Assembly (NCBI GenBank): GCA_951812805.1
Contig: CATOSZ010000002.1
Location: 248,001-312,000 of the forward strand
DNA: 64,000 nt
DNA from: an uncultured Alphaproteobacteria bacterium
Lineage (GTDB): Bacteria > Pseudomonadota > Alphaproteobacteria > GCA-2731375
Reading direction: 5' to 3'
This document shows positions 12,266 to 16,582 of the stretch, in pieces. The translations under genes were made by a program, and so were the position numbers. Every line of letters starts with the position of its first letter. Within the stretch, counting starts at the first letter, position 1. A model generated the notes under the pieces. The model was not told the DNA's origin. It made no database searches and was given only the letters and a program-made list of their open reading frames with translations.

Positions 12266-13237
12266 ATGAAGCATCTGACAATTGTCTGTGCGGCTGCCTT
12301 GGCACTTCTGGTGGCGCCGGGCGCGGGCACATCGGTGGTGGCCAAAGAAACCATCCGCATTGGAACCGGTGGCAAGACGGGTGTTTATTTTCCGACCGGC
12401 GGTGCCATCTGCCGCTTAGTCAACCGGGGCGCCAAGACACACGGTATCAAATGCAACGTCGAATCCACCGGCGGCTCCGTCTACAACCTCAAGACAATTC
12501 GCGGCGCCGGCCTGGATTTCGGCATCGCGCAGTCGGATTGGCAATACCACAGCTTCAAGGGGACCTCTCGGTTCAAGGAGGACGGTCCCTACGACGAACT
12601 GCGTGCCGTCTTTTCCGTGCACCCGGAGCCGTTCACCGTGGTGGCGCGCGCCGATTCCGGTATCAAGACCTTCGACGATCTGAAGGGCAAGCGGGTCAAC
12701 ATCGGTAATTCCGGTTCCGGCCAGCGGGCGACCCTCGACGTCGTGCTCGCCGCGAAGGGCTGGACCCTCGCCGACTTCTCCGAGACGACGGAGTTGAAAT
12801 CGGCGGAGCAGAGCCGCGCGCTCTGCGAAAACAAGGTCGACGCGATGATTTTCACCGTCGGTCATCCCAGTGGCTCGGTCAAACAGGCCTCGACCCGGTG
12901 CAGCACCGTTCTGGTCGACGTCTCAGGGCCGGCGATCGACAAGCTGATCGCCGACAATCCCTACTATCGGACGGCGAAGATACCGGGCGGCATGTACAAG
13001 GGCACGGATGGCGATACCGTCACCTTCGGCGTCGGCGCCACCCTCGTCACCTCGGCCAAGGTTTCGGAAGAGGTGGTCTATACCGTCGTCAAGTCGGTCT
13101 TCGACAACTTGAAGCGCTTCAAACGGCTGCATCCCGCCTTGAAGATCCTGGTCGCCGAGGAGATGATCAAGGACGGCCTCTCGGCCCCGCTGCATGACGG
13201 CGCGAAGAAGTTCTACAAGGAACAGGGCTGGCAATAG
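12266..13237 (+). CDS. TAXI-family TRAP-type solute-binding protein (first of a pair)
   Basis: 323 residues with a signal peptide (about residues 1-26). TAXI hallmarks follow in order: IRIGTGGKTGVYFPTGGAICRLVN, CNVESTGGSVYNL, GIAQSDWQYH, RVNIGNSGSGQRAT and GLSAPLHDGAKKFY. Members are periplasmic ligand receptors that normally hand substrate to a fused TRAP membrane permease. No such permease is in the window. A paralogue lies at 15593-16582, and both flank the binding-domain/ion-channel fusion. The two share CST-LVDV and HPALK segments. This gene converges on the channel gene with 30 bp between the stops. It is preceded by a 147-bp gap with only a weak promoter-like pair. Confidence 0.9.
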   Translation: MKHLTIVCAAALALLVAPGAGTSVVAKETIRIGTGGKTGVYFPTGGAICRLVNRGAKTHGIKCNVESTGGSVYNLKTIRGAGLDFGIAQSDWQYHSFKGTSRFKEDGPYDELRAVFSVHPEPFTVVARADSGIKTFDDLKGKRVNIGNSGSGQRATLDVVLAAKGWTLADFSETTELKSAEQSRALCENKVDAMIFTVGHPSGSVKQASTRCSTVLVDVSGPAIDKLIADNPYYRTAKIPGGMYKGTDGDTVTFGVGATLVTSAKVSEEVVYTVVKSVFDNLKRFKRLHPALKILVAEEMIKDGLSAPLHDGAKKFYKEQGWQ

Positions 13238-13267: not shown

Positions 13268-15526
13268 TCAGAACAGCGTCAGCCAGATATAGACGAAGAC
13301 GCCGATGGTCGGCAGCGGATAGATCACCGCGCCGCCCCAGTTGATGGCGCCTGCCGTCTTCAGCCTTTCCTTGCGGTAGAACCAGAAGCTCGCGACGCTG
13401 ATCATGATGCCGAACCACATGGCGGTCTGCAGCGCGAAGAAGATGTAGTCCATCGCCACGAGATAGCCGATGTTCGGCAAATCGTTGGAGAGTCGCGCAC
13501 GCAGCAGCGATACGGTGACCAGGACGAGGATGCCGCCGCTCAGCCGTGGTGGCAACTCGTCCACCGGCACGAAGAACAGCATCAAGCCGATGACGAACAG
13601 GATCGTCATCGGCAGCAGGATTGTCGTGCTGTAGCTGGTCAGTTTCCGTGCGATCTGCAATTCGAGCGTCATGCGTGAGAAGTCGACGTTGGTCTCGCCC
13701 TCGAAAAACACCGTTTCGCCGAGCGTCGAGGCCGTCTTGATCAGGTCCTGATAGAACTCGGCCTCGGTGATGCGCCAGCCGAGCGAGGTGCGAAACACAT
13801 TGTCGGCCTCGAGCCGGCCGAGCAGGGTGGAGCCCGGCTCCGTCAACCGCATGCCGAGGCGATCGGCGACGAAACTCAGGCTTTCCCGTGTCCGGTCGCG
13901 GTGGCGGAGTTCCAGCACGACCCGCTGGCTGTCGAAGGGATAGTCGCGAAACTGGAACTCGCCGTGGAAGGTACCGCGGATCTTGAAGGTGACGATGTTC
14001 ATGCCGTTGCGTTCGCGCTGCCAGATCGGATTGTCCAGCGCGACATCGCTCACGGCATTCGAGAACTCGAGCTTGGAGAGATCGAGTTCGCCCCGATAGC
14101 GGAGCCACATGTAGAAATCCAGGGTGTAATCCCCGGTCGAGGTGTTGAGGTTGGAGAATTCGTTCAGGTCCATCCCGATATAGACCACCTGCGTCGCGTG
14201 CATGTAGCCTTCGTCGAACGGGATGATCGCGCCCGCCTCGAGCTTGTCCGCGAAGCCGGGCACCATGACCGGGTTGGCGACCGGTTCCAGCTGCACGGGG
14301 GCCGAGATGAACTGGTCCAGCTGAAAGACACCGACCGGCACCGTCTTCACGACATTGCCGATGGCATCGAAGTAGATCCGCCCCGTAATGCCGGAATAGG
14401 CAGCCTCGGGCCCGTCGATCTTCGCGAGATAATCGCGGATCTTTTTTCGGTCCGCCGCCAGGTCGGTACCAGAGAGCTGGCCGTTCTCGATCGCGTGGAA
14501 GGCGACGCTGGCGGCATCGTAGTAAAGCGCCATGCCGGAATCCGGCGTCTGCCCGTACTTCTCATGAAAGGCGTTGCGGAAGCGGGTCGCATTCTCGTTG
14601 GCGACGTCCCAGATCATCGACGTCGTGGCGTAGATCTGGTCGGTGAAGTCGCCGGGTGACGTCTTCGTGACCGGATCGGGTTCGAAGAAGTTCGGAAATC
14701 CCTGATTGATCGAATCCGGACCGAAGACTGGAAACACGAAGCCCGAATTGCGCATCTCCCGCACGAAATGTGCGGCGTTGGTGGCGTTCATCGCCAGGAA
14801 GACGACGCCGCTGTCGGGAACTAAGGACAACTCGGCGACGATTTCACCCATGGTCAGGTCGATGTCCGGATCGCCGGCCTCGACCTCGAACTTGTGCGCG
14901 ATCGTCAGGGGCAGCCCCTCGACGGACTCGAGAAAGGCGGTGGACAGGGACTTGCCGTAGGCACTGTCCGACGAGATCAGGGTGGCGGTCTTGAACTTCA
15001 GAATGCTGTTGATGTAGTTGGCGATGAAATCGGCCTGCAGGGCGTTGTTGTAGACGACGCGGAAATACCAAGGATTGTCCGGCGTCAATTTGTCCGCCGT
15101 CGCGGTGCCCGAGATGGCGACGATCTTGCCGTCACGATAGATCGGGCTCGCCGCCATGGAGGCGCCGCTGGTCCGATGGCCGATCACGAGCAGCGATTGC
15201 GTCTCGCCGACGATCCGCCCCGCCGCCTCGGCCGCCCCCTCGGGCGTGTTGCCGTCGTCGAACACGACGACTTCGATCCGCCGGCCGTTGATCCCGCCCT
15301 TGGCGTTGATCTGTTCCGCGCGCAGCCGTGTCGCGTCGATCATCGCCTTGCCGAGGCGGGCGGAATCGCCGCTCATCGGGCCCGCAACCGCGATGGTCCA
15401 GGGCGGCAGCTCCTCCTGGGCACGGACCGGCGTTAGTGCGAAGACGAGCGCCAGCAGACACATCAACGCCAGGACGCGCGGGAAGGCCGCGGCGTGGATG
15501 CGGCGGGGAAGCGGCGTCGAGGTCAT
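13268..15526 (-). CDS. Periplasmic binding protein type 1 fused to a pentameric ligand-gated ion channel
   Basis: 752 residues from ATG 15526. Residues 1-36 form a signal peptide (cleavage near VRA-Q). Residues 37 to about 430 form a LivK-type binding protein: WTIAVAGPMSGDSARLGKAM, INAKGGINGRRIEVVVFDD, VIGHRTSGAS, ISSDSAYGKS. Residues about 445-625 match the extracellular sandwich of Cys-loop receptors: YIGMDLNEFSNLN, DYTLDFYMWLRYRG and the signature loop FRDYPFDSQRV, whose two cysteines are absent as in prokaryotic members. Four membrane helices follow: M1 630-654, M2 658-680, M3 686-716, M4 728-752, with NDLPNIGYLVAMDYIFF between M2 and M3. Aligned at Arg661 as 0', M2 reads PPRLSGGILVLVT, close to the PAR-type filter of anion channels. 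It is probably an inner-membrane pentamer gated by a periplasmic solute. Its gene follows a TAXI receptor in a likely operon. Confidence 0.88.
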   Translation of the reverse strand: MTSTPLPRRIHAAAFPRVLALMCLLALVFALTPVRAQEELPPWTIAVAGPMSGDSARLGKAMIDATRLRAEQINAKGGINGRRIEVVVFDDGNTPEGAAEAAGRIVGETQSLLVIGHRTSGASMAASPIYRDGKIVAISGTATADKLTPDNPWYFRVVYNNALQADFIANYINSILKFKTATLISSDSAYGKSLSTAFLESVEGLPLTIAHKFEVEAGDPDIDLTMGEIVAELSLVPDSGVVFLAMNATNAAHFVREMRNSGFVFPVFGPDSINQGFPNFFEPDPVTKTSPGDFTDQIYATTSMIWDVANENATRFRNAFHEKYGQTPDSGMALYYDAASVAFHAIENGQLSGTDLAADRKKIRDYLAKIDGPEAAYSGITGRIYFDAIGNVVKTVPVGVFQLDQFISAPVQLEPVANPVMVPGFADKLEAGAIIPFDEGYMHATQVVYIGMDLNEFSNLNTSTGDYTLDFYMWLRYRGELDLSKLEFSNAVSDVALDNPIWQRERNGMNIVTFKIRGTFHGEFQFRDYPFDSQRVVLELRHRDRTRESLSFVADRLGMRLTEPGSTLLGRLEADNVFRTSLGWRITEAEFYQDLIKTASTLGETVFFEGETNVDFSRMTLELQIARKLTSYSTTILLPMTILFVIGLMLFFVPVDELPPRLSGGILVLVTVSLLRARLSNDLPNIGYLVAMDYIFFALQTAMWFGIMISVASFWFYRKERLKTAGAINWGGAVIYPLPTIGVFVYIWLTLF

Positions 15527-15588
15527 CAGGTGAACGCGAGAGAGACGGCCGCGCGGCGCGCTCGCCACGTGGCGGGAAAGTCGCCCAT
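15526..15588 (-). CDS. Possible 20-codon leader ORF coupled to the channel gene
   Basis: After the TAXI stop codon, an ATG at 15588 has AGGAG 7 bases upstream. It opens a 20-codon frame (MGDFPATWRARRAAVSLAFT) whose TGA overlaps the channel ATG as TGATG. The channel ATG itself has no good ribosome site. The arrangement suggests translational coupling through a leader. The alternative is that the channel starts at GTG 15568 in its own frame, which also lacks a ribosome site. Function of the peptide itself is not implied. Confidence 0.35.
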   Translation of the reverse strand: MGDFPATWRARRAAVSLAFT

Positions 15589-15592
15589 TCCC

Positions 15593-16582
15593 CTACTCCT
15601 TGTTTCGCGCGGTGGTCTGGAAATAGGCCTGGGCCGCGTCGTGCAGCGGCGCGCTGAGCCCATCCATCTTCATTTCACTCGCCTTCAGGCCTTTGAGCGC
15701 CGGATGCATGAGCTTGAACAGGCCGAGGTTCTCCAAAACGCTTCGCACCAGGGTCTTGATCGCCTGGTTGGGCACTTTCGCATTGGCGACCAGCGTGGCG
15801 CCGACCCCGAATGTCGTGACCTCCCGGGACTGCCCGAAATACATGCCGGCCGGAATGACCGCCCGGCGGTAGTAGGGATGTTGGGCGATGAGGTCCTTTA
15901 TCGGCGCACCTTCGACGTCGACCAGATTGGTGCTGCACTTGGCGGTCGCCGCCTTGATGGTGCCCGAGGGATGGCCGGCGACGAAGACGATGGCCTCGAC
16001 CTCGCCATCGCAAAGCGCCTGTGCCTGGTGTTTGGAGTCGAACTCGCGCACACCGGTGAAACTGAACCGTGTCCAGCCAAACGCGCGCATCACGACTTCC
16101 ATCGTCGCGCGTTGACCGGAGCCGGGGTTGCCGATGTTGACCCGGTGGCCGGGCAGGTCCGAGATCGATTTGATGTCCGAATTCGACCGGGCCAGCACCG
16201 TGAACGATTCCGGATACAACGAGAGGACGGAGCGCAGTTCGAGGTCCGGGCCGATGTCGCGGAACCTGCTCGACCCGTTGTAGGCGTGGAACTGCCAATC
16301 CGACTGCACGATGGCCAGATCCAGCGAACCCTTGCGCATGCGCTTCAGGTTCTGGATCGACCCGCCCGTGCTCTCGACGACGCATTCCGGTTCGCTCGGC
16401 GCACGATCGGCGTTATAGAGGCGGCAGATGGCGATCGCGACGGGATAGTAGACACCGGTGACCCCACCGCTGCCCATGATCAGCTTGTCGTTCTTCGCGT
16501 TCGCTGCGCCCAGCCAAAGCGCCGGGAAGGTGAGAACGAGCGCGACCGCCAATCGAACAGCCGTATTTCGCCGATCCGTCAT
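15593..16582 (-). CDS. TAXI-family TRAP-type solute-binding protein (upstream of the channel)
   Basis: 329 residues from ATG 16582; in-frame codons further upstream lack a better start. The signal peptide is MTDRRNTAVRLAVALVLTF followed by an ANA cleavage site. TAXI motifs are complete: GSGGVTGVYYPVAIAICRL, VESTGGSIQNL, AIVQSDWQFHAY, HRVNIGNPGSGQRATMEV and DGLSAPLHDAAQAYF. It is a paralogue of the receptor at 12266-13237. The gene ends 66 bp before the channel ATG and is on the same strand, so receptor and channel are probably one operon. No TRAP permease is nearby, which makes a hand-off to the channel's binding domain worth considering. Two TGACTA boxes 15 bp apart lie upstream. Confidence 0.9.
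   Translation of the reverse strand: MTDRRNTAVRLAVALVLTFPALWLGAANAKNDKLIMGSGGVTGVYYPVAIAICRLYNADRAPSEPECVVESTGGSIQNLKRMRKGSLDLAIVQSDWQFHAYNGSSRFRDIGPDLELRSVLSLYPESFTVLARSNSDIKSISDLPGHRVNIGNPGSGQRATMEVVMRAFGWTRFSFTGVREFDSKHQAQALCDGEVEAIVFVAGHPSGTIKAATAKCSTNLVDVEGAPIKDLIAQHPYYRRAVIPAGMYFGQSREVTTFGVGATLVANAKVPNQAIKTLVRSVLENLGLFKLMHPALKGLKASEMKMDGLSAPLHDAAQAYFQTTARNKE

Follow-up and report, generated by a model that had tools for sequence, protein, structure and literature searches.

Background

What does a solute-binding domain of the LivK type do at the head of a pentameric ligand-gated ion channel (pLGIC), and are the two parts truly encoded as one protein? These questions are raised by a gene on an alphaproteobacterial contig, which is considered here within a window of 64,000 nucleotides, the whole stretch of DNA that was analysed. 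Fusions of a type 1 periplasmic binding protein (PBP-I) domain to a pLGIC were first described in alphaproteobacteria by Tasneem et al. 2005 (PMC549065), who also noted separate PBP-II genes next to genes for pLGICs, as well as bacterial pLGICs in which the residue before M2 is basic, as in the anion type. The PBP-I + ART-LGIC fusions that the paper describes from Magnetospirillum magnetotacticum and Bradyrhizobium japonicum show the same order as the protein studied here (P0001), namely PBP-I, ligand-binding domain and four-TM channel, the PBP-I domain preceding the pLGIC core within a single chain. According to Jaiteh 2016, such domain associations are known at the genome level only, and none of the prokaryotic pLGICs has a known biological role. 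In 2022, DeCLIC was the sole pLGIC with an extra N-terminal domain whose structure was known (PMC9897478).

No functional study of PBP-type pLGICs was found in the literature searched. To our knowledge, no structure, ligand or current has been reported for any of their members. P0001 is thus an addition to a known, functionally unstudied kind, and its architecture itself is not new.

The fusion gene and its close relatives

The features discussed below are the following, with coordinates in the window:

13268..15526, minus strand: PBP-I + pLGIC fusion gene (P0001), an uninterrupted frame also present in L014, L015, L016 and L132
15416..15526, minus strand: signal peptide, residues 1-37, with a putative cleavage site; read from the sequence, the Pfam domain beginning at residue 42
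14315..15403, minus strand: LivK-type PBP-I domain, residues 42-404, with S120, T143 and D271; Peripla_BP_6 and alignments to LivJ, LIVBP and LBP
13646..14236, minus strand: Cys-loop-receptor-like beta-sandwich (ECD), residues 431-627; ELIC ECD profile, Foldseek, VIA and hhalign
13925..13942, minus strand: Pro-loop YPFDSQ, residues 529-534; P530, D532 and Q534 in 26/26 pLGIC-type proteins
13646..13648, minus strand: pre-M1 arginine R627; in 26/26 pLGIC-type and 1/24 MscS-type proteins
13271..13645, minus strand: four-helix pLGIC transmembrane domain, residues 628-752; Pfam, NCBIfam, PDB phmmer and model
13475..13546, minus strand: M2 pore helix, R661 (0') to P684 (23'), with PPR at -2' to 0', R15' and R17'; 36-pore alignment
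15593..16582, minus strand: upstream TAXI-family solute-binding protein gene (PBP-II fold), NMT1_3 E 2.1e-72; 66 bp before the channel ATG
12266..13237, plus strand: downstream convergent TAXI-family solute-binding protein gene, NMT1_3 E 4.6e-86; 30 bp from the channel stop

Translation of 15526-13268 on the minus strand gives 752 residues in a single open frame without a stop; the start codon may be the ATG at 15526 or an in-frame GTG at 15568. The reading given in the preliminary description (signal peptide, binding protein, YPFDSQ beta-sandwich and four-helix pore in one 752-residue frame) is borne out by the translation, Pfam, NCBIfam and the PDB. That description was unaware of the 2005 publication (PMC549065), and it had overlooked the flanking TAXI genes, the anion-type signature of the pore and the MscS pore of more distant relatives.

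The same uninterrupted fusion, 63-69% identical, occurs in an alphaproteobacterial MAG, Rhizobiales IMCC20636 and a Boseongicola MAG (L014, L015 and L016), and a fourth relative, L132, carries it as a continuous frame in a genome of another class. A frameshift or assembly join between the two halves, and the lack of the same fusion in any related genome, had been put forward as grounds for doubt; the first objection fails against these four continuous frames, which rule out such an error in P0001, and the second falls with the four relatives that carry PBP-I and pLGIC together. Judged from these homologues, the fusion is ancestral and no assembly join. Its gene is present as a single copy in its own genome, and, as the ECD was found in this genome only among 15 sampled genomes of the same order, its distribution is patchy.

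The binding domain, the ECD and the pore

Peripla_BP_6 matches residues 42-363 with E 9.5e-47, covering 311 of 343 profile positions, and a phmmer search of the PDB retrieves LivJ (4gnr, E 1.4e-23). In alignments to LivJ, LIVBP and LBP, residues S120, T143 and D271 fall on S79, T102 and E226 of LBP, which we take to be the positions that anchor the ligand in the pocket, and all three are invariant in the four close proteins. As far as alignment can tell, the LivK-type anchoring residues are retained, which lends sequence-level support to the earlier proposal that this domain senses an amino acid or a related solute.

Of the other two Pfam families expected for this protein, Neur_chan_memb matches residues 637-711 below threshold (E 9e-4, 20.0 bits against Pfam's own cut-off of 28.1), and Neur_chan_LBD gives no Pfam match on P0001. 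The NCBIfam model LIC is found with E 6.5e-9, the pore of a chimeric GABA-A receptor is retrieved from the PDB by phmmer (E 3e-12), and a profile of the ECD alone matches the ELIC ECD there (E 3.3e-6). Compared by hhalign, the ECDs of the PBP-pLGIC group align with those of plain pLGICs with P 99.6. Modelled with low confidence (pLDDT 51.8), residues 420-752 still have no top matches other than pLGICs, among them GlyR (Foldseek, E 2.4e-14) and GLIC (VIA, Z 16.7 over 267 residues); the full-length model, with a pLDDT of 43.6, is too poor for domain packing. P0001 further carries the Pro-loop Y529-P530-F531-D532, the beta9 tryptophan W584 and the pre-M1 arginine R627, which belong to the pLGIC residue set of Jaiteh 2016. 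By pore homology and ECD features, the protein is assigned to the pLGIC superfamily. GLIC, ELIC, sTeLIC and the other plain prokaryotic pLGICs share its ECD and pore fold, but have no PBP domain.

The pore was compared in an alignment of 36 bacterial pores, in which 33 sequences carry R or K at 0' and a single one carries Glu at -1'. Members of the window clade show PPR at -2' to 0' (APR in L132), together with R15' and R17', and the pore of P0001 accordingly presents a basic ring and lacks the Glu at -1' of cation channels. This composition suggests an anion-preferring flux, a call that applies the animal pre-M2 rule; Jaiteh 2016 cautions that this rule is insufficient in prokaryotes, the motif being no predictor of selectivity there. 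M2 is essentially invariant across the four close homologues, which are 63-69% identical overall.

TAXI genes around the channel gene

The fusion gene lies between two genes for TAXI-family binding proteins, the upstream one running in the same direction and probably forming one operon with it. Both TAXI genes are found in the same layout in the window, L014 and L016, L015 has the downstream one only, and in L132 a TAXI gene that is 51-60% identical to the other TAXI copies lies directly upstream of the channel; each of the five close loci (the window, L014, L015, L016 and L132) therefore has at least one TAXI gene beside its channel gene. The downstream orthologues (window, L014, L015 and L016) are 68-75% identical and the upstream ones (window, L014 and L016) 56-59%. 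As these values exceed the 47-52% identity between upstream and downstream copies, the two lines split before these genomes did. No TRAP permease was found on the window's contig, and the genome's TRAP_fused permeases above cut-off sit only on another contig (C3), which makes the TAXI pair of the window orphans.

The flanking pair extends the remark on PBP-II neighbours made by Tasneem et al. 2005 (PMC549065), and P0001 is set apart from the fusions described there by its two TAXI neighbours, which belong to separate orthologue lines. At L092:7791-10269, a plain 371-aa pLGIC gene is directly followed by a TAXI gene, so that the TAXI link is not confined to PBP-fused channels; a weaker case is the MscS-type gene of L087, with a TAXI gene in its vicinity. 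Adjacency to the channel is no proof of interaction, and the upstream TAXI gene is absent in L015.

The same sensor on MscS pores

A class-wide search with P0001 returned five more distant relatives, of which L012/L090 alone runs into a pLGIC pore; the remaining four run into an MscS channel, one of them with a cyclic-nucleotide-binding (cNMP) domain. The ECD of P0001 on its own finds the MscS-type relatives with phmmer domain E-values of 2e-14 to 4e-10. Profiles of the pLGIC-type and MscS-type ECDs align over 212 columns (P 99.9, E 3.5e-32), and 35 MscS-type ECDs match plain, PBP-less pLGICs with P 98.8 and E 9e-17, against P 0.3 for the controls (TAXI; shuffled columns). These searches, profile comparisons and controls rule out that the MscS-type proteins resemble the ECD by chance. 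When a profile was built from MscS-type ECDs only, four in number, it matched nothing in the PDB, and the link of these domains to solved structures therefore goes through the pLGIC-type members.

Matches to the ECD profile occur in 43 of 398 phylum genomes, 9 of 385 class genomes (E 1e-5) and 15 of 369 genomes of another class (E 1e-10). Among the regions read, 34 ORFs combine PBP-I, ECD and MscS, including one in Azospirillum brasilense Sp7, and several of these proteins end in a C-terminal, cytoplasmic cyclic-nucleotide-binding domain. The sole ORF there with ECD, MscS and cNMP-binding domain but without PBP-I is L144:6818-9145. PF13458 and PF00924 were both found in 24/24 proteins of the first MscS-type set, and PF00924 scored above cut-off in the further members scanned, some of which have the cNMP domain; P0001 itself has no PF00924 match in Pfam. 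The MscS-type loci are L009/L087, L010/L088, L011/L089, L013/L091, L047-L063, L065, L066, L112, L114, L133-L138, L140 and L142.

The MscS-type protein of Azospirillum sp. B510 (WP_012976639.1) is annotated solely as an ABC transporter substrate-binding protein. When plasmid records were searched with P0001 by tblastn, nine Azospirillum replicons were hit, and the match stops at residue 584 or 619, before M1. Type I secretion genes (ABC, HlyD and TolC; L112:6771-14227) lie head-to-tail behind the B510 gene, and a HlyD-like frame precedes the Sp7 copy (L114). Both pore types occur under the PBP-I + ECD sensor within single genomes, namely G429, G437, G455 and G479 (L050-L052, L056, L057, L060, L067, L070, L073 and L083). 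At L083:6263-9791, a PBP-fused pLGIC gene has a plain pLGIC-like gene (403-aa frame) directly behind it in the same orientation, a pair that possibly encodes a two-subunit channel.

The core of the ECD (W474, V553, D555 and W584) is kept in both sets. The positions tied in pLGICs to coupling with the pore are present throughout the 26 pLGIC-type proteins but not in the 24 of MscS type, where P530 is found in 10, Q534 in 5, D532 of the Pro-loop in none and the pre-M1 R627 in 1, the alignment being less sure at this last position, beside the exchange point. As read from these alignments, the residues that couple the ECD to a pLGIC pore are lost in the MscS-type proteins and the ECD core is retained. 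A sensor tree built on PBP and ECD only, with the pore excluded (a quick tree with a midpoint root and some long branches), requires a single change of pore type, with a branch support of 96, and places the window clade near the MscS branch. The direction of the change would be from the pLGIC to the MscS pore, because the ECD is otherwise known from pLGICs. We judge it likely that the LivK-type PBP-I domain and the Cys-loop-receptor ECD form a portable ligand-gating module on two unrelated pores, pLGIC and MscS, for which one exchange suffices and with which the coupling residues decayed. MscS channels are heptameric and pLGICs pentameric.

The relatives have the pore and beta-domain in common with the MscS superfamily, including its cNMP-binding (bCNG-type) members, but no member of that superfamily was found described with a PBP-I + Cys-loop ECD sensor, and neither domain was reported on an MscS channel in the literature searched, which lay mostly outside subscription journals. 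The link to MscS pores is likewise not part of the accessible text of Tasneem et al. 2005 (PMC549065).

Proposed mechanism and alternatives

The reading that we favour, with some reserve, is that P0001 would be a homopentameric, ligand-gated channel of the inner membrane, whose PBP-I domain senses a solute and acts through the ECD on an anion-preferring pore, linked to the TAXI proteins and built on a portable sensor. In the periplasm, the ECD ring would be topped by five PBP domains. Their clam-shell would be shut by an amino acid or a comparable solute, and this closure may open or tune the pore through the ECD, the Pro-loop, the pre-M1 arginine and the M2-M3 loop; all ECD-pore coupling residues are in place in the sequence. 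The resulting flux may prefer anions, as suggested by PPR, R15', R17' and the missing Glu -1'. The solute bound by the two TAXI proteins is probably the same one or related to it, and they could either deliver it to the channel or compete with the channel. In relatives, the PBP-I + ECD pair would instead serve as the same sensor on a pore of the MscS family. LivK-like N-terminal domains are also found in animal ionotropic glutamate receptors and class C GPCRs, with an outer PBP-I clam-shell like that of P0001 but unrelated output modules, and in some receptors the PBP domain is allosteric or structural and not the agonist site.

The binding domain of P0001 might likewise be an allosteric modulator or an assembly platform, with the agonist (a proton, a divalent ion or an amine) binding to the ECD as in GLIC, ELIC and DeCLIC, which we consider rather unlikely. 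The complete, pLGIC-like ECD of P0001 would allow it, and DeCLIC offers a precedent, as its pLGIC core, too, bears an additional N-terminal domain in the periplasm, one that depends on calcium and modulates kinetics (PMC12664993, PMC9897478); this domain consists of two jelly-roll lobes (PMC12664993), however, and not of a PBP clam-shell. The invariance of the LivK anchoring residues in the close homologues argues against this alternative, as does the joint movement of PBP and ECD onto another pore, which fits a sensing unit.

The TAXI genes on both sides could also point to a non-conducting or uptake-linked receptor, a partner of TAXI/TRAP or ABC uptake with a vestigial pore. This is very unlikely in view of the near-invariant M2 and of the TRAP permease gene missing from the same contig. 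An artefact of assembly or annotation behind the PBP-I fusion or its MscS counterpart deserves next to no credence: the genomes include several fragmented drafts, but continuous frames recur in many genera, including the single-contig genomes G379 and G741 and complete Azospirillum replicons, and these homologues already refute it.

Significance

For the gated-channel reading of P0001 and its relatives, the PBP domain, the conserved TAXI pair and the culturable carriers of the MscS type (A. brasilense Sp7 and Azospirillum sp. B510) provide concrete experimental handles. A ready comparison for the coupling of ECD and gate is offered by nature itself, where an MscS pore stands in for the pLGIC pore under one sensor, the presumed coupling residues being lost after the exchange and the ECD core kept. 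If true, MscS channels whose gating by extracellular solutes runs through a domain of neurotransmitter receptors would constitute an undescribed class of channels.
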